In this document: one piece after another, positions 6,044 to 48,721 of the stretch
How positions within the stretch are numbered: the first letter of the stretch is position 1
Layout of the letters: every line of letters starts with the position of its first letter
Assembly (NCBI RefSeq): GCF_001244545.1
Contig: NZ_LN852696.1
Coordinates: 868,001-932,000, forward strand
Reading direction: 5' to 3'
From: Candidatus Stoquefichus sp. SB1
GTDB taxonomy: Bacteria > Bacillota_I > Bacilli_A > Erysipelotrichales > Coprobacillaceae
Length of the DNA stretch: 64,000 nt
The notes under the pieces: generated by a model
Told to the model about the DNA's origin: nothing
Seen by the model: the letters and a program-made list of their open reading frames with translations, nothing else
Database searches by the model: none
Made by a program: the position numbers and the translations under genes

Positions 6044-7133
6044 AGATTATACAAGTAAATTTCAAAAAGAGATTTTAAAGAAGCATTTAATCATTGCAAT
6101 TATATCTATTGTATTAATGTTATTGTTTTATTTTTTTGTTGATCATTTTTATAATGGTGCTGCAATTAATTTTATTCAAGAGATATTTGGTTGGACATTT
6201 GCTAATTTTATTTTAAAAAATCAAAGTGCTTTTGTATTTATGACGTTATTAATTGTTCTTTTATTGAATTCATTGATTGTAGAAGTTTATGCCATTCAAA
6301 AAATTTCCCATGTCTTTTCTCAAATGAAAATATTATTTCAAAAAGATAATCAAAGAATTATATTGGATGAATCATTATTTGAGTTAGAAAATGATTTAAA
6401 TGAATTAAAAATTGAATCTATTGAAAATGAAAAAAAAGCAATTAAAGAAGCTCAACATAAAGTTGATATGATTGCTTATTTAGCTCATGATATCAAAACA
6501 CCTCTAGCATCAGTTATTGGGTATTTATGTTTATTAGATGAAACAGATGATTTACCCGATGATTTACGTCATAAATATACACATATGACATTAGAGAAGG
6601 CATATCGTTTAGAAAAACTGATTAATGAGTTTTTTGATATTGCAAAATTAAATCAAACATATAGTTCATTACATAAAGAAGATATTAATTTATATTATTT
6701 ATTAGAGCAAATGAAAGAAGAATTCTATCCAATTATGAATCAAAAAGGACAAGTCATTGATATTCAGGTTGAACCTTCTATGATGATTTATGCAGATGCT
6801 AATAAAATAGCTCGTGTTTTTAATAATATTTTAAAAAATGCATTTTATTATGGTGATAAAAATACAACAATATCAATTGTTGGAAAACAGGATGATGTTT
6901 ATTCACATATTTTATTTAGAAATATAGGAATAACTATCCCAGAAGATAAACTACAAACAATATTTGAACAATTTTATCGTTTAGATGAATCACGTTCTTC
7001 TGCAACTGGTGGTTCAGGATTAGGATTATCTATTGCGAAAATGATTGTTGAACAGCATCAGGGATTTATCAAAGCTGAAAGTCAAAATCATATTACAACA
7101 TTTGAAGTTTTGATTCCACTTTTACCACTTTAA
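6036..7133 (+). CDS. VanS-like sensor histidine kinase
   Basis: 365 residues. Two membrane segments (about 17-36 and 66-84) flank a short outer loop; then HisKA with H151 in YLAHDIKTPLASVIGYL, and HATPase_c with NNILKNAF, DKLQTIFEQFYR and GGSGLGLSIAK. The H-box and the AYRLEKLINEFFDI region match VanS closely. I use a TTG start at 6036, eight bases inside the regulator gene, with GGGGAGTAGG upstream; this overlap implies coupled translation. The signal is unknown, perhaps a cell-wall precursor or a wall-acting drug. Confidence 0.9.
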   Translation: MAKDYTSKFQKEILKKHLIIAIISIVLMLLFYFFVDHFYNGAAINFIQEIFGWTFANFILKNQSAFVFMTLLIVLLLNSLIVEVYAIQKISHVFSQMKILFQKDNQRIILDESLFELENDLNELKIESIENEKKAIKEAQHKVDMIAYLAHDIKTPLASVIGYLCLLDETDDLPDDLRHKYTHMTLEKAYRLEKLINEFFDIAKLNQTYSSLHKEDINLYYLLEQMKEEFYPIMNQKGQVIDIQVEPSMMIYADANKIARVFNNILKNAFYYGDKNTTISIVGKQDDVYSHILFRNIGITIPEDKLQTIFEQFYRLDESRSSATGGSGLGLSIAKMIVEQHQGFIKAESQNHITTFEVLIPLLPL

Positions 7134-7137
7134 TAAA

Positions 7138-7183
7138 TTCTTAAGAATTTGTTAAACAAATTTATTGTTTTTTCTTCTATACT
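7138..7183 (+). promoter_or_regulatory. promoter of the C39-like peptidase gene with VanR-type boxes
   Basis: TTCTTAA (7138-7144) and TTGTTAA (7149-7155) in 11-base phase, then TATACT (7178-7183). The first box is 40 bases upstream of the -10, exactly as in front of the vanR-like gene, which suggests one regulon. Confidence 0.6.
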
Positions 7184-7206
7184 TGATTTGTATGGAGGAA
7201 AATTGT

Positions 7207-7962
7207 ATGAAAAAAAAGATTGTTATTGGTATTGTGATTGTGATGATACCTTTCTTGATTTTAATTTTAGATCATTTTGTTTTAAATGAGGATCTTCATT
7301 TAGATAGTTTTTATGACAGTTCAAAAGAATGGTCATATATTACAGAACATCAAAATGAGTATCCTCTTTCCTTATTAAAATTAGCAATGCATAATAAAGA
7401 AACAATTCCTTTTGTTGCACATTATCCTCAAAATTCATCTAAAAATCTTTCTATGAATGTTCAAGATGACTTAAAAACAGGTGGAATTCCACTTTTGCTG
7501 CAATGGGATGAACGTTGGGGATATAAAAATTATGGTGATAATATTATGGCTATCAATGGATGTGGACCAACTTGTTTGTCAATGGTTGTGAGTTATCTCA
7601 AACAAAATGGACAATATCATCCCTATTGCATTGCTCAATTTGCAAGAGGGAAAGGTTATTATAGTGAAAGCGGAACGGCTTGGGGTTTAATGAATCAGGG
7701 AGCAAAGTCATTTGGTATAAAGGTTGAAGAATTAGGATTGGATGAGGAAGTGATTAAAGAAAAGTTAACTGCCAAGAATCCAATTATTTGTAGTGTTTCA
7801 AAAGGAACCTTTACAACTGAGGGACATTTTATTGTTTTACGTGAATATAAAAATGGGTTGATTTATGTTAATGATCCTAATAGTCGTGAAAAAAGTCAGA
7901 AGGGTTATACTTTCAAAGAATTAAAATATCAAATTAAAAATTTATGGGCTTATTCATTATAG
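7207..7962 (+). CDS. membrane-anchored C39-like cysteine peptidase
   Basis: 251 residues: an N-terminal hydrophobic anchor (4-21), a linker, then a papain-like C39_2 domain from about 92. Visible active-site elements are NGCGPTCLSM (Cys 119, oxyanion region), GHFIVL (His near 210) and VNDPN (Asp/Asn). The W-D-x-R-W motif (QWDERWGYKNYG) is typical of the family. It acts outside the membrane, probably on peptidoglycan or wall proteins. TGGAGGAAA lies before ATG 7207; the upstream TTG at 7165 has no ribosome site. It probably belongs to the VanRS-like regulon. Confidence 0.8.
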   Translation: MKKKIVIGIVIVMIPFLILILDHFVLNEDLHLDSFYDSSKEWSYITEHQNEYPLSLLKLAMHNKETIPFVAHYPQNSSKNLSMNVQDDLKTGGIPLLLQWDERWGYKNYGDNIMAINGCGPTCLSMVVSYLKQNGQYHPYCIAQFARGKGYYSESGTAWGLMNQGAKSFGIKVEELGLDEEVIKEKLTAKNPIICSVSKGTFTTEGHFIVLREYKNGLIYVNDPNSREKSQKGYTFKELKYQIKNLWAYSL

Positions 7963-7991
7963 CATGCTATAATCTGATAGAGGTGACAGAT

Positions 7992-8447
7992 GTGGAAATT
8001 CGACAAGTTCCTTATACCGATTATGATTTGCAAACATTGGTACAAGAGTTAGATGATTTCTTTTTAAATGCCTGGGGACAACAAGTGGCTGGACGTTATC
8101 AAAGTTTGCATCAGCTTTCTTTGATGGCTTATGAGTGTGTTTGTTATGAAAAGGAACCTATAGGGTGTGGCTGCTTAAAACATATTGATGCTCAGAATGT
8201 AGAAATCAAGCGAATGTATGTCCGTGCCAAATATCGTCGACAAGGTGTAGCTACGCAAATATTGCAACATTTAGAAACTGTTGCAATAAACAATGGATAT
8301 CGTTATTGTCTTTTAGAAACAGGAAAAGATATGCAGGATAATATATTGTTTTATGAAAAATGTGGGTATTATTTGGTTGATAATTTTGGTGATTTTATTG
8401 GTGATGATATTTGTATATGTATGAAGAAAGATTTGAATAGCAACTAG
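7992..8447 (+). CDS. GNAT family N-acetyltransferase
   Basis: 151 residues. The acetyl-CoA site is VRAKYRRQGVATQIL (R/Q-x-x-G-x-A), followed by LETVAINNGYRYCLLETG and FYEKCGY, all standard GNAT elements. I choose GTG 7992 (VEIRQVPYTDYD) because AGAGGTG ends 6 bases upstream; an ATG at 7944 lies inside the peptidase gene. The acceptor is unknown. The stop codon lies in the loop of the terminator. Confidence 0.85.
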   Translation: MEIRQVPYTDYDLQTLVQELDDFFLNAWGQQVAGRYQSLHQLSLMAYECVCYEKEPIGCGCLKHIDAQNVEIKRMYVRAKYRRQGVATQILQHLETVAINNGYRYCLLETGKDMQDNILFYEKCGYYLVDNFGDFIGDDICICMKKDLNSN

Positions 8448-42006: not shown

Positions 42007-42738
42007 ATGAAAAGATTAAAAAAGATTGGGTGTTTTGTTATATGTCTTGGTTTATTTGGATGTGGAGAAAATTATACGAAAAGTCCAACGGATCAATATA
42101 TTCAAAATCCAGATGAAGTAGAAAATAGTGAAACTTCTCAAAGAGATATTCCTGCATTAAATATGAAACAGATCACTTTAGATAGTATTCTTCAAAATCC
42201 TGAACTACCAACAGGATGTGAAATTACATCTTTAACAATGGTTTTCAATTATTATGGGTTTTCAGTAAATAAACTAGATTTAGCAGATCATTATTTAAAT
42301 AAAGGTCCAATCGGTGAAACAGATTTTAAAAAAGCATTTGTTGGGAATCCAAGAGATAAACATTCTTATGGCTGTTATGCACCAGTTATAGTAGAATGTG
42401 CTAAAAAATATATAAAAGATCAGGAATCCTCTTTACAAGTTATTGATAAAACAGGTTCTTCTATAGAAGATTTATTCAATTTACTCAATCAGGATATTCC
42501 TATTATTGTATGGTGCAGTGTTAATATGGAAGAACCTTATAAGTCTGTTCAATGGAACGTTGATGGAAAAAAATTACAATGGTTATCAAAAGAACATTGT
42601 CTTGTTTTAACTGGATATGATAGAACAAAAAATATTGTATATGTCAATGATCCATTGAAAGGAAGTATAAGTTATAATGCAGATAGTTTTGAACAACGAT
42701 ATAAACAAATGTTCTCACAAGCTGTTGTGATTCGTTAA
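42007..42738 (+). CDS. C39-like peptidase lipoprotein
   Basis: 243 residues. Signal sequence with lipobox LFGC (Cys 19). The C39_2/BtrH-like domain has PELPTGCEITSLTMVF (catalytic Cys near 72), KEHCLVLTGYD (His) and VYVNDPLKGS (Asp). It is exposed on the outer membrane face and may process wall peptides or secreted proteins. It is a second, distinct relative of the peptidase at 7207. Its ribosome site (GAAGGAATAGGG) is a little far from the ATG. Confidence 0.85.
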   Translation: MKRLKKIGCFVICLGLFGCGENYTKSPTDQYIQNPDEVENSETSQRDIPALNMKQITLDSILQNPELPTGCEITSLTMVFNYYGFSVNKLDLADHYLNKGPIGETDFKKAFVGNPRDKHSYGCYAPVIVECAKKYIKDQESSLQVIDKTGSSIEDLFNLLNQDIPIIVWCSVNMEEPYKSVQWNVDGKKLQWLSKEHCLVLTGYDRTKNIVYVNDPLKGSISYNADSFEQRYKQMFSQAVVIR

Positions 42739-42994: not shown

Positions 42995-43588
42995 CTATGA
43001 TTTAAAATAGCGATTATAAGTTCTAAATAATAAATTATGTCTCTTGTTGCTTGGTTCTTTATACCAATCCCTACAGCATTTTTCAATAGTCATACTAAAT
43101 AAATTTTTGTTAATCATTAGTTCGTATTTTTCTTGTGTAAATGGATATTCAACAACTGTCCATTTCGCATCACTATTATTGTTTATAACGACATCACCAA
43201 AATAAATAGACATCATATCTTCAAATTCATGTTGATCAACTCCTAAAATATCAAAAGAGTTATTTTCATATAAATCAAAATACCATTTTTCTAATACTTT
43301 TAAACTTTCAACAGTATAGTCAGGTAAAAAACATGAATAATTTTTACATATAGATTTTAGTTTGTTTGATAAACAAGTTCTATAAGCATAGAAGTATTCT
43401 TCTGCTTCTTGCCTGTTCTTAAAACTTTGTAATTTTTCTCCATATTGATATGCAACTTTTAAATTGCTTTTAACTTTTGTATTTGGACTATACTCAATTT
43501 TTATAATTGAATACAGTGGTTTTTCTTCAATTTCATTATTATCTGCAGTTGTCAATTTGTTTTTCTTGAATCTATCAATTAGTCCCAT
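42995..43588 (-). CDS. hypothetical protein of the accessory stretch
   Basis: 197 residues, soluble, beginning MGLIDRFKKNKL. That opening resembles the MGLFGFGKKKK start of the SUKH-like gene at 46050 and is seen on many toxin or immunity proteins. Aromatic-rich middle (EEYFYAYRTCLSNKLKSIC), no domain recognised. AAGGTGAAAATATA precedes the ATG. Base use is more A/T-rich than the core genes to the left. Confidence 0.6.
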   Translation of the reverse strand: MGLIDRFKKNKLTTADNNEIEEKPLYSIIKIEYSPNTKVKSNLKVAYQYGEKLQSFKNRQEAEEYFYAYRTCLSNKLKSICKNYSCFLPDYTVESLKVLEKWYFDLYENNSFDILGVDQHEFEDMMSIYFGDVVINNNSDAKWTVVEYPFTQEKYELMINKNLFSMTIEKCCRDWYKEPSNKRHNLLFRTYNRYFKS

Positions 43589-43802
43589 ATTTATATTTTC
43601 ACCTTTATTTTATCATTCCTTTTTTATGAACATTATATCATTCTTTTGTATAGATGATATATTTTTTTGAACTCAATGAATGTTATTAAATAATATATAA
43701 ATTTAATTTGAATTTTAAAGATGCGTTTATGATTTATAAATGATATTTAAAGTCAAACTTGTAAATGTTATAATTAGAATAGATTTTATTGGAGGAGAGA
43801 AT

Positions 43803-44621
43803 ATGGCTAAAGATTTTGAAAGTATTAAAGAGGATGTTAAAAATGGAATTGGAGAAATTAAAACTCAGACAAGTAAAATTGGATCGAATTTAGTTGATGA
43901 AACTAAATTTGTAATTGAAAAATCTACAGATGTACTTTCTAAATCTGTTGAAGGAGATGGAAGTTCACTTTTAGGTAAAAGCCTGTTAGGAGCGGCAATA
44001 GGGGTTTGTGCAGTTGCTGCTGCGCCTTTTACAGGAGGAGGTTCAGTTTTGGCTGGTGCAACTTTTGTTGGCTCTTTAGCATCTGCTGGAGCAATTACTG
44101 GTGCGACAATTGCAGGCACAATAGGAGCGGTTGGTGGAATGGCTAAACAAGGTTATGATAATATAAAAAAAGAAAATCTAATCAAGGAAGCAAAAGTGCA
44201 TTCTTTTAAAGATGGTATAAATAAAGGTAAGTCATTAACGGTCCAACAAATCAAGAAATATGCTGATTTTTGTTTGGCGACAACAGCATTGTCGTTTTAT
44301 ATAGCAAGATGTGATGGATCAATTGATGATGAAGAAATGATAGAACTAGAACGTGATTTAAATTTATTAAAGAAAAATAGAGATTTACCAGAGGCTATTA
44401 AGAATGAATTGTTAAAAATTTCTAGAGAAGATGATTTGTCTTTTGAAGATGTTAAAAAATATTTGGATGAAGTTAGTATTGAAACTTTAGTTGAACTAAA
44501 AAAAGATATTGATGAAATTATTGAGGCAAATGGCGTGATTTCTGTAGAAGAAAAATATGCTAAAAATCAATTTCTATCATATTTATATTATCGAGAAAAG
44601 AGTGAGAATATTAATGGTTAA
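43803..44621 (+). CDS. glycine-zipper membrane protein with TerB-like domain
   Basis: 272 residues. Residues 1-55: amphipathic helix rich in charged residues. Residues 57-115: a small-residue, Ala/Gly-rich double membrane helix (AAIGVCAVAAAPFTGGGSVL). Residues 145-265: an acidic helical domain with YIARCDGSIDDEEMIELERD, like TerB (DUF533/co-chaperone DjlA) domains that bind metal. GGAGGAGAG precedes ATG 43803. The next gene overlaps by 8 bases, so both are one operon. A role at the membrane in stress or phage response is only inferred. Confidence 0.7.
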   Translation: MAKDFESIKEDVKNGIGEIKTQTSKIGSNLVDETKFVIEKSTDVLSKSVEGDGSSLLGKSLLGAAIGVCAVAAAPFTGGGSVLAGATFVGSLASAGAITGATIAGTIGAVGGMAKQGYDNIKKENLIKEAKVHSFKDGINKGKSLTVQQIKKYADFCLATTALSFYIARCDGSIDDEEMIELERDLNLLKKNRDLPEAIKNELLKISREDDLSFEDVKKYLDEVSIETLVELKKDIDEIIEANGVISVEEKYAKNQFLSYLYYREKSENING

Positions 44622-45813
44622 AATATCAAAATTAAATCAACCAAGTCAAAAAGGAATGGAAGAAAGACTTGATAATAACACAGTTTCTTCTGATATGGAT
44701 ATATCTATTTGTTCATATTATCAAAGTATATTGTCTGATGAAGAGGTAGAAAAAGCAATATTAGAATATAGAGATAATATGGATGTGATATCTAAACGAT
44801 TTGAAGAAAAAACGAAGCTACAAGGATATGATATAAAATTTTTAATGTTTGCAACCATGTTACAATGTACCCGTATTTATTTGATTAATGAATTAACAAG
44901 GATAGAAAAAGCCAATATTAAAAATGGAAGAGAAGATTGGCTTCATGATAAACAAAATCAAATTTTAAATAAATTTGGTAATGGGGAAAAGAAAGAAGTT
45001 AATAATTACTATGCTTCTCTTGATATGATAATTACTTCTAGAGGTGTGCCTTATGATGCAACGAGATATAAAAATACTAATTATCATATTTTCAAAGGTG
45101 CAAACCATAGATTTTCAACTTTGGGGCATGATCCAATAGCAGGATTAATATTTGGAACAGCAAATATTTTAACAAGTACACTAACGACAGAAAAGCTTAA
45201 AACATATCATGTTAAATATGATAATAGGTTTAAAAATCCAAGCATTTCATTACCGGCAAGTACAATTAAAATGTTAGAAGCAGCAGCTTCTCGTTTTAAT
45301 GGTGACATAACATCTATTGTGGCAGCGGTTATAAAACAATTAATACATATAATGACAGATTTATATACTCCATGTGGTATACAGCTACCAGGAGCAAATT
45401 TGATTTTGTCAAAAAATAATGTAGAGAAGTTAACTCAATATGTCAGTACTGGTGATATTATAAAAGTAGGAACTTCAACGGGAATATCAATTTTGATAAA
45501 TACAATTATTGCATCTGTTCATGGATCAAAATTACTTTTTGAAGATGATGATGAAAATTTTTCTGAAGAACTCTATTCTATTAGGACAAAGAAAATAATA
45601 ATGTATTCTAATGTTATTGCATCATCTAGTAACATTATACATACTGCTTTATCAAAGAATATAAGCAAATTTGACTTAGGAGGATTTCTAGTAACCTGCT
45701 ATCGAGTATTTAATGACAGTAATTTTATTGATAAGATTAAATATGAATTTTTAAATTCAGAAGTGAGTACTATTTATGAGGAAGAAGTCAAAGGAATAGA
45801 GTTATATTATTAA
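44614..45813 (+). CDS. unknown protein with GHDP motif, partner of the TerB-like protein
   Basis: 399 residues. The centre holds a striking conserved-looking block: IITSRGVPYDATR, then FSTLGHDPIAGLIFGTANIL and TSTLTTEKLKTYHV. Two or three weakly hydrophobic stretches follow (ITSIVAAVIKQLIHIM, ISILINTIIASVHGSKLLF). I do not know a function. ATG 44614, with GTGAG upstream, lies 8 bases inside the previous gene, which indicates coupled synthesis. A hairpin with arms TTTTTATC/GATAAAAA (about 45826-45842) closes the operon. Confidence 0.65.
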   Translation: MVKISKLNQPSQKGMEERLDNNTVSSDMDISICSYYQSILSDEEVEKAILEYRDNMDVISKRFEEKTKLQGYDIKFLMFATMLQCTRIYLINELTRIEKANIKNGREDWLHDKQNQILNKFGNGEKKEVNNYYASLDMIITSRGVPYDATRYKNTNYHIFKGANHRFSTLGHDPIAGLIFGTANILTSTLTTEKLKTYHVKYDNRFKNPSISLPASTIKMLEAAASRFNGDITSIVAAVIKQLIHIMTDLYTPCGIQLPGANLILSKNNVEKLTQYVSTGDIIKVGTSTGISILINTIIASVHGSKLLFEDDDENFSEELYSIRTKKIIMYSNVIASSSNIIHTALSKNISKFDLGGFLVTCYRVFNDSNFIDKIKYEFLNSEVSTIYEEEVKGIELYY

Positions 45814-45897
45814 AATTTTTTATCAATTTTACTAGATAAAAAGTTTTGGAAATTACGTCTTTATTACTTTGTTCACGCTGAAAAAGTTCATTATTTC

Positions 45898-45946: not shown

Positions 45947-46049
45947 GTAAAATTAAAAATGTGTATATCATCAAGTGAAAAAAGAGCGCTATGCTTAATG
46001 ATTATATATTATTTTGAACACAAAAATTATAGAAACAGTGGTAAAGATT

Positions 46050-46793
46050 ATGGGATTATTTGGATTTGGAAAGAAAAAAAAGGCTATTCAAAAAGAAAAT
46101 ATAAATAATGAAAGTTTTGAAGAAAATTTAATTCGTTATTTAAATGATAATGGTTATAATCATGGAGAAGTTAGATTATTATTGCCTGAAGTTGTTAATG
46201 TGTTGAATTTTGAAAGTAAATGGAAATCTATTTTGTCTTTAGAAAAGAGAAATGAAAGAGTTGAAAAAACAATATATTATTGGGAAAAGTATGCAAGTTC
46301 TTTTGAAATTATGATTAAAATATTGAAATCAATGTTATTTTCAATTGATACAGTTCTTTATAATGAACAACTTAAAGTTATTTATACATTTCGTGTTAAA
46401 GATGGTTTCTTATATTACATAGGAGGTTTACCTATCGAATATCCTCAAGATGCTATTGTGAATCAATTACCTATAGAAATACTAGATTTTTATAGAAACA
46501 TACATAACGGTTTTGTTCTTTATGGTTTAGGAGATATGGGATTAGAGTCTTATGATAATTTCTATTGTATAGGTGAAGATTTACTTCAAGAAGAATTTAT
46601 AGATGGTTATTCTGTAAAAGATACATATATGATATTCTCCAATGGAGCAGGAGATGGTATTGTTTATGATGTAAGTCAAACACCAGTAAAAGGTTTCTTA
46701 TATTTTCATGATGATCATGATGGTTGTGAATTTGATATTAATCTAATTGATACTATGTGTGCATGGATTGAGATTGTTTTAAAAGATATTTAA
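46050..46793 (+). CDS. SUKH/SMI1-KNR4-like protein (candidate immunity protein)
   Basis: 247 residues. After the basic start MGLFGFGKKKKAIQKEN, a helical part (20-110), the second half reads LPIEILDFYRNIHNGFVLYGLG, YCIGEDLL, YMIFSNGAGDGIVYD and GFLYFHDDHDGCEF, the order of strands seen in SUKH proteins. Those neutralise secreted polymorphic toxins. No toxin gene is adjacent, so it is an orphan. ATG 46050 is preferred over the upstream TTG. The ribosome site is poor. Confidence 0.65.
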   Translation: MGLFGFGKKKKAIQKENINNESFEENLIRYLNDNGYNHGEVRLLLPEVVNVLNFESKWKSILSLEKRNERVEKTIYYWEKYASSFEIMIKILKSMLFSIDTVLYNEQLKVIYTFRVKDGFLYYIGGLPIEYPQDAIVNQLPIEILDFYRNIHNGFVLYGLGDMGLESYDNFYCIGEDLLQEEFIDGYSVKDTYMIFSNGAGDGIVYDVSQTPVKGFLYFHDDHDGCEFDINLIDTMCAWIEIVLKDI

Positions 46794-47399: not shown

Positions 47400-47417
47400 T
47401 GGCAGGGGCGGCAGGAA
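47400..47417 (-). other. attL: 3' end fragment of tRNA-Trp
   Basis: The minus strand reads TTCCTGCCGCCCCTGCCA: T-arm end, acceptor strand CGCCCCT, discriminator G and CCA. AGGGGCG/CGCCCCT with G73 is typical of bacterial tRNA-Trp. Only these 18 bases match a tRNA; further upstream the T-loop and anticodon arm are absent. This is the duplicated core left by prophage insertion; the complete gene should stand at the other prophage end. Confidence 0.75.
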
Positions 47418-47519: not shown

Positions 47520-47541
47520 ATACGGACTTTCATACGGACTT
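47520..47541. repeat. candidate integrase arm-binding direct repeats
   Basis: ATACGGACTT at 47520-47529 and 47532-47541, 12-base phase, overlapping the end of the integrase gene and about 110 bases from the core. Tn916-type integrases bind such arm repeats through their N-terminal domain. Confidence 0.45.
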
Positions 47542-48694
47542 ATAAACATATTTCATCGTTCATTATATCTATTATAGATTGTTCAAAGTCAGGCATCAAA
47601 TGGCTATATGTATTTAGCGTTTCTTTAACGTCTTTATGACCTAAGTGCTTGGCCACAATCATAATGTTTGCATTTTTGTTTATTAGATAGCTCGCATGAC
47701 TATGTCGAAAATCATGAACTTTTATCTTAGGAAGGCTTGCGATTTTGGTATATTTGATTAGATATCTATGTATTGAAGTATCAGGAATAAATCTTACTGT
47801 ACCAAAAACATAGCAATCATCTGTAAAGCCATCTATTTGACTTTCACGGTTATATAGTTTTTGTAATAGTTCTACTAATATATCAGGAATCATTATATTT
47901 CGAATAGACGTTTTTGTTTTGGGTGGAGTGACTTTGTATATAACCCCTCTTTCTCGTTCTTCTTTAGAAGTTTTTGTAGTCAAAGATTTGGATATAGATA
48001 TTCTTTTATTTATCAAGTCAATATCTTTCCAATTTAACGCTTGGGACTCTCCTTTTCGCATTCCTGTTAAGTATAGCGTTGAAAAATAAGTTTTCCATAG
48101 TAATTCATCAACATTTGCGATAAACGCTTTAAATTGCTCATATGTCCAAAAATGAATAGTTTCATTTGATTGTATTTCATCTGGTCTAACAAAAGTGCCA
48201 ACTAGTGCAGCAGTATTTCTTAATAATCCATAATTTGCCATAGCATATTTAAACATATTGGATAATAAATTATATATTGACCTGCTATATTCAAGAGAAA
48301 ATTCTTTCTTGTCAATCCATTCTTTCCATTCTACAATATCGTGTGTAGTAATATCATATATTCTTTTTTGTCCGAAAAATGGTAGAATCTCATTTTTTAT
48401 TCTTCTTTCATTTGTGACAGCGGTTGATCCTTTATAGGTTTGCCTCTTAAATCTAAAATAAGGTACAAACATTTCATTAAATGTAATATTGTTTTTATTA
48501 TCCTCTTTTGCTTTTGCTTTTTCTTCTAGGTGTAATTTATCTGCTTCAAGTTGTTTTAAGAACTCGTCTTTTAATCTGTTTGTTTCTTTTTTTGATTCAG
48601 CTGTTATTTTTTTCTCTCTTCTTTTGTTGGTTTCTGGATCGTGATAATAAAAGCGCTGTTCCCATTTTGTTTTATTTATTTGTTTATATGACAT
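47540..48694 (-). CDS. int: prophage tyrosine-family integrase
   Basis: 384 residues: an AP2-like arm-binding domain (1-60; WEQRFYYHDPETNKRREKK), a SAM-like core-binding domain (70-165) and the catalytic domain (185-384) with Arg in TLYLTGMRKGES, HDFRHSHAS, LGH and the nucleophile Tyr in TLNTYSHLMPD. It recombines attP with the tRNA-Trp 3' end. AAAGGATGTG precedes ATG 48694. It faces the attachment site, as usual for temperate siphophages. Confidence 0.95.
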   Translation of the reverse strand: MSYKQINKTKWEQRFYYHDPETNKRREKKITAESKKETNRLKDEFLKQLEADKLHLEEKAKAKEDNKNNITFNEMFVPYFRFKRQTYKGSTAVTNERRIKNEILPFFGQKRIYDITTHDIVEWKEWIDKKEFSLEYSRSIYNLLSNMFKYAMANYGLLRNTAALVGTFVRPDEIQSNETIHFWTYEQFKAFIANVDELLWKTYFSTLYLTGMRKGESQALNWKDIDLINKRISISKSLTTKTSKEERERGVIYKVTPPKTKTSIRNIMIPDILVELLQKLYNRESQIDGFTDDCYVFGTVRFIPDTSIHRYLIKYTKIASLPKIKVHDFRHSHASYLINKNANIMIVAKHLGHKDVKETLNTYSHLMPDFEQSIIDIMNDEICL

Positions 48695-48721
48695 AATAAA
48701 AACACATCCTTTCAATTGCAT

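Follow-up and report, generated by a model that had tools for sequence, protein, structure and literature searches.

Two overlapping genes in the window, by which we mean the whole 64,000-nucleotide stretch of Candidatus Stoquefichus sp. SB1 DNA that was analyzed, encode a protein with a Gly-zipper segment and a TerB-like domain (gene 1) and a homolog of the Bunzi protein BnzB (gene 2), and we conclude with moderate confidence that this operon is an anti-phage module of two genes, Bunzi-like but divergent, associated with the membrane and provided with a putative metal-binding effector. A sequence-only reading of the same DNA had proposed a phage-defense or toxin-type membrane system not yet named. 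The defense part of that proposal is favored by (i) the BnzB homology; (ii) a relative of gene 2 that precedes canonical bnzAB; and (iii) a patchy, accessory distribution, while for the toxin-type part we found no positive evidence. As for the system being unnamed, PADLOC misses gene 1 and gives for gene 2 only a remote BnzB match outside the BnzB clade, but a nearest named system does exist, namely Bunzi.

Gene 1 (P0001, 272 aa) is an open reading frame on the forward strand with an ATG at 43803 and a stop at 44621, and gene 2 (P0002, 399 aa), on the same strand, has its ATG at 44614 and its stop at 45813; the 8-base overlap between them that had been read from the letters is present at 44614–44621. 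Each gene also has a ribosome site of its own, as the same reading held, the stronger one, a good Shine-Dalgarno sequence (GGAGGAGAG, 43791–43799), belonging to gene 1 and the weaker one (GAGTGAG, 44600–44606) to gene 2. At the end of the operon a hairpin can form on the forward strand (45811–45848; −9.6 kcal/mol, z −2.54, stem of 14 pairs), so that the closing hairpin proposed earlier exists, but its stem is A+T-rich and it is not a G+C-rich terminator. The flanks, which had been called richer in A/T, have a G+C content of 24–27% versus 28–30% in the operon, a difference that is only slight.

In PADLOC, gene 2 is recognized by the model for BnzB over residues 108–383 (E 1.2e-28), whereas a family search in Pfam, NCBIfam and PHROGs yielded no match. 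When the alignment of its relatives, here called GHDP proteins, was compared with that of BnzB-type proteins by profile–profile alignment (hhalign), a probability of 95.7 and an E-value of 1e-8 were obtained. A maximum-likelihood tree splits 88 GHDP proteins from four BnzB-type proteins as sister clades with a support of 100/100; the long BnzB branches limit the branching order within BnzB, not this split. Judged from its sequence, gene 2 is a homolog of BnzB, yet it belongs to the sister clade and not within BnzB.

The Gly-His-Asp-Pro block to which the sequence-only reading had drawn attention is real: H172, D173 and P174 are kept in all 76 GHDP relatives and G171 in 75 of them, the further invariant residues being F63, T67, D148, G177, G181, H245, D249, P259 and D354. 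Gene 2 and three confident BnzB rows have D73, D148, H165, H172, P174, G177, H245, D249, P259 and D354 in common, the fourth BnzB row (L027) being remote and without the His residues, whereas D173, F63 and T67 are absent from the BnzB conservation in this alignment with four BnzB rows and are invariants specific to the GHDP clade. On the forward strand of the window, the codons of D148, within a VPYD motif (45055–45057), and of D354 (45673–45675) correspond to residues found in all 76 GHDP and all four BnzB rows. The block running from H165-R166 to G171-H172-D173-P174 (45106–45135) has H165 in 75 and H172 in 76 of the 76 GHDP relatives, with both His residues in three of the four BnzB rows, and the H245-x3-D249 motif (45346–45360) has each of its two residues in 76 of 76 and in three of four, respectively. 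The set formed by D148, H165, H172, H245, D249 and D354 suggests a putative metal site, an idea that draws on conservation, as no solved fold matched gene 2.

The AlphaFold2 model of gene 2, built with 76 rows, is nearly all-helical (mean pLDDT 86, pTM 0.70). Foldseek returned no match to it at E 0.001 in the PDB and BFVD, and the VIA-align list, headed by unrelated helical membrane proteins with a top Z of 8.1, was uninformative. The best 19-residue hydropathy of P0002 is only 1.55, a value that would also fit a protein that is soluble or peripherally bound. None of the INPHARED phage records encodes gene 2. Kinship with YdjM/DUF457 (PF04307), predicted membrane-bound metal-dependent hydrolases with a similar motif order (D ... 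HRxxT ... H-x3-D-x2-T-x2-G), was tested by hhalign with shuffled columns and a reversed control and by a Pfam scan of 76 members, and was not supported beyond a likeness of motifs: the profile comparison was not significant (E 0.069) and no better than shuffled columns (score 21.3 versus a mean of 20.0), and PF04307 is not among the Pfam families listed for the 76 GHDP members.

Gene 1 consists of an N-terminal helix, a Gly-zipper hydrophobic segment, a short coil and a C-terminal TerB-like domain. The Gly-zipper segment (approximately residues 59–118; 43977–44156, forward strand), recognized by sequence, hydropathy and Gly/Ala count, had been described before and is borne out, as the richest 40-residue stretch contains 21 Gly/Ala while only one of 123 control ORFs of 120–400 aa reaches 18; the top 19-residue hydropathy is 1.87, at residue 56. 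For the other half of the protein (approximately residues 150–268, with the ARCDGSIDDEEM motif; 44250–44606, forward strand), the predicted fold, examined by AlphaFold2, Foldseek and VIA-align, favors the TerB assignment made earlier, while the sequence points to it weakly, the Pfam matches to DUF533 (E 9.7e-5) and TerB (PF05099; E 0.079, 13.7 bits with a cut-off of 24.4) both remaining below their cut-offs. Two relatives of gene 1, at loci L041 and L076, each reach 15.7 bits with Pfam TerB in the same place (E 0.018 and 0.019, respectively), and such relatives stand before or behind GHDP genes. The AlphaFold2 model averages a pLDDT of 52, the TerB part being the only one where values of 68–85 prevail; with this model, the top Foldseek match was 2h5n (probability 0.99, E 0.16), and VIA-align ranked 2h5n (Z 6.7) and 2ou3 (Z 6.6), a COG3793 tellurite-resistance protein, first and second, both with Z below 8. 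Relatives of gene 1 were detected at L041 (1.8e-47), L033 (1.4e-17, shortened) and L076 (5.6e-14). We found no plasmid encoding gene 1, and its matches on two viral contigs (L125 and L126) are due to chance, lying within a DNA polymerase III-like protein.

The genome of the nearest congener (G001) is co-linear with the window up to the gene for a C39-like peptidase, which ends at 42738, and again from tRNA-Trp, the distance between these two genes being about 0.65 kb in the congener versus about 4.6 kb in the window. On its right side the accessory stretch is bounded by the attL-like core of a tRNA-Trp prophage (47401–47417, forward strand), which occurs once in the window (chance 0.00). This 17-base core equals the 3' end of the congener's tRNA-Trp gene and recurs at G000:C6:950979–950995, and given its presence at both sites the prophage spans about 35.6 kb, from 47401 in the window to G000:C6:950995; a tyrosine integrase is encoded at 47540–48721 on the reverse strand. 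Consistent with the earlier placement between core chromosome and prophage, the operon stands to the left of attL and is accessory DNA beside the integration site, just outside the prophage, and not prophage cargo. Two more accessory genes flank the operon in this strain-variable stretch: one at 42995–43588 (reverse strand), whose family was not recognized, and one at 46014–46793 (forward strand), which had been called SUKH-like and proved weakly SUKH-1-like, with E-values of 0.008–0.026 that stay under the Pfam cut-off.

Relatives of gene 2 occur in at least 127 GTDB contig stretches, of which about 79–80 loci were kept and used for the census, and they represent Bacillota, Bacteroidota, Spirochaetota, Thermodesulfobacteriota and Lentisphaerota. 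Five IMG/VR contigs, Lactococcus plasmids and Lachnospira eligens carry further relatives, and so do two genera of the host's family other than its own. Only four of 196 related genomes, the host genome included, carry the family, and the GHDP distribution is patchy and accessory.

Rather than lone genes with a housekeeping role, the homologs are members of local clusters: about 78 of the 88 GHDP loci have a recognizable partner or regulator, although the type of partner varies and the TerB version of the pair is rare. In most of the 88 loci the partner is the product of the gene next door. Partners include Gly-zipper proteins (34 loci by census), a coiled-coil protein of about 139 aa and its kin, and dynamin-like or other large proteins, in classes set by simple rules and small profiles that make the counts approximate; a WYL regulator is often adjacent (88-locus census). 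TerB/Gly-zipper partners like gene 1 were seen at four loci (the window, L041, L076 and, shortened, L033), and as these lie on four separate branches of the tree, the TerB version has joined or been lost repeatedly. At L029 and L030, the loci of the closest gene 2 relatives, the partner is a coiled-coil protein accompanied by a WYL regulator, and not a TerB protein. Across the GHDP tree the partner type switches at least 35 times (shuffled mean 51.5), and this switching marks the gene 2 protein as the constant part and the partner as the variable one. In the GHDP operons of pNP40 and pLLI11B (Lactococcus) and of Lachnospira (Eubacterium) eligens, the second protein is 32–36% identical to P0002, whereas the partner is EF-Tu-C-terminal-like, coiled-coil or dynamin, with a WYL regulator in front. 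Some partners of GHDP or BnzB proteins match the LeoABC-type dynamin systems (PADLOC LeoA and LeoBC; L008 dynamin, L003 Gly-zipper protein), while the window operon contains no dynamin.

Several individual loci merit description. At L033, the TerB partner gene retains only approximately its last 104 residues and is overlapped by a phage-type integrase frame (L033:5204–5923), while the GHDP gene is intact. An uncatalogued partner set is present at L022:6953–11929 (G451), where a BnzB-like gene is followed by genes for a dynamin-like protein of 990 aa and a membrane protein of 203 aa. A decaying copy was found at L023 (G045:C10, approximately 6328–8249), where a GHDP/BnzB-like gene has broken up into several short frames, as has the gene for its Gly-zipper partner.

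On plasmid pLLI11B (L009:3953–10373) a WYL regulator comes first, then a coil gene, a GHDP gene, bnzA and bnzB, the last two being canonical (5e-128 and 2.7e-150, respectively) and the GHDP gene standing directly before bnzA. Two related effectors, GHDP and BnzB, are thereby encoded side by side in one cluster. In the case of L041, the closest full two-gene match to the window operon, a type II DNA methyltransferase is encoded about 3.8 kb away; L033 adjoins the PADLOC candidate pair PDC-M04A/B; and pNP40, with its GHDP copy, carries abiE on the same plasmid. In genome G057 type I restriction-modification genes come after a BnzB-type gene, and a Gly-zipper/coil protein (PDC-M09A, 2.5e-68) follows a BnzB-type protein there, a likeness to the PDC-M09A/B candidate system, neither model of which matches the window proteins. 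At a threshold of 1e-10, 138 PADLOC families were matched by 148 neighbor proteins versus 64 by 145 controls, figures that contain redundant models without per-protein counts and a control with a Shango locus, and this weakly suggests a modest enrichment of defense families around GHDP genes. Comparison with 20 control regions showed no clear enrichment of recombinases or transposases near GHDP genes.

Bunzi (BnzA and BnzB; PADLOC PDLC03833 and PDLC03834), among whose components TerB is listed (PMC10952713), resembles the window operon in being a two-gene operon of order A–B, in the invariant Asp/His core that BnzB has in common with gene 2, and in the modules of BnzA, TerB and Gly-zipper, to which a probable TerB-like part and a Gly-zipper correspond in gene 1. 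These likenesses could be taken to mean that the operon is canonical Bunzi, with gene 1 a diverged BnzA, gene 2 a diverged BnzB and no structural novelty, and when gene 1 is compared by BLASTP with a canonical BnzA (E 0.083), the best local match (residues 155–182 versus 171–198) falls exactly on the TerB DG motif. However, the BnzA model PDLC03833 has no match to gene 1 (threshold E 1) or to any of this genome's proteins, gene 1 has 272 aa versus approximately 545 aa for BnzA, and the domain order is opposite: in the L009 BnzA the DG motif (approximately 171–198) comes ahead of the Gly-zipper (approximately 320–380), whereas in gene 1 the Gly-zipper (59–118) precedes the TerB-like part (150–268). 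Gene 2, moreover, falls in the fully supported sister clade with D173, F63 and T67 as its own invariants, and a GHDP gene coexists with bnzB in the pLLI11B cluster. We therefore disfavor the canonical assignment, which we consider distinctly improbable; in sequence terms, the operon is set apart by BnzA and by domain order but is clearly related, that is, Bunzi-like and not Bunzi.

A role in membrane integrity or stress response that is not phage-directed, such as tellurite-type or dynamin-like membrane maintenance, would fit the TerB, Gly-zipper and dynamin partners, all of which point to the membrane, as well as the frequent WYL regulators and the few recombinases in the wider flank sample. 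We nevertheless regard it as unlikely in view of the patchy presence of the genes, their absence from the congener's site, their occurrence on plasmids and IMG/VR contigs and their adjacency to Bunzi and other defense genes. That gene 2 is instead a toxin and gene 1 its membrane-bound neutralizer, the two serving as a toxin-antitoxin or element-maintenance pair, seems very improbable: the proteins exceed the usual size of such pairs, no toxin-antitoxin family was matched, and many loci have a separate WYL regulator in place of autorepression, even if two overlapping genes in accessory DNA beside a prophage, and a constant gene with variable partners, are what such a pair might look like.

Under the preferred reading of a divergent Bunzi-like anti-phage module, the operon probably works like Bunzi, by analogy. 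The mechanism of Bunzi is listed as unknown (PMC12926258), and since the papers examined that name Bunzi give none, the working of a membrane module is proposed here from architecture. Gene 2 would be the effector, probably membrane-associated, with the invariant Asp/His set as its putative metal-binding active site, and gene 1 would be its membrane partner, inserting into the membrane by its Gly-zipper segment. The TerB-like domain, which would be cytoplasmic, may silence the effector or may sense membrane disturbance or TerB-linked signals during phage entry. A change in the membrane, or in some other state that is monitored, brought about by infection would then activate gene 2 to act at the membrane, and either the infection would be blocked or the infected cell killed.

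The wider GHDP family with its exchangeable partners is a more interesting point than this single operon. We propose, tentatively, that GHDP proteins may act as the unchanging effector in an extensive anti-phage class, for the most part uncatalogued, in which the membrane-sensing partner is exchanged (TerB/Gly-zipper, Gly-zipper alone, coiled coil, dynamin or large protein). Bunzi would be one named branch of this class, and the TerB plus Gly-zipper partner of the window could have been assembled independently, with its domains reversed. Catalogues that require BnzA and BnzB together would not call most GHDP loci. With one protein constant, few invariant Asp/His residues and exchangeable membrane partners, this broad sister family makes the question of which part is effector and which is sensor testable by mutation and by partner swapping.
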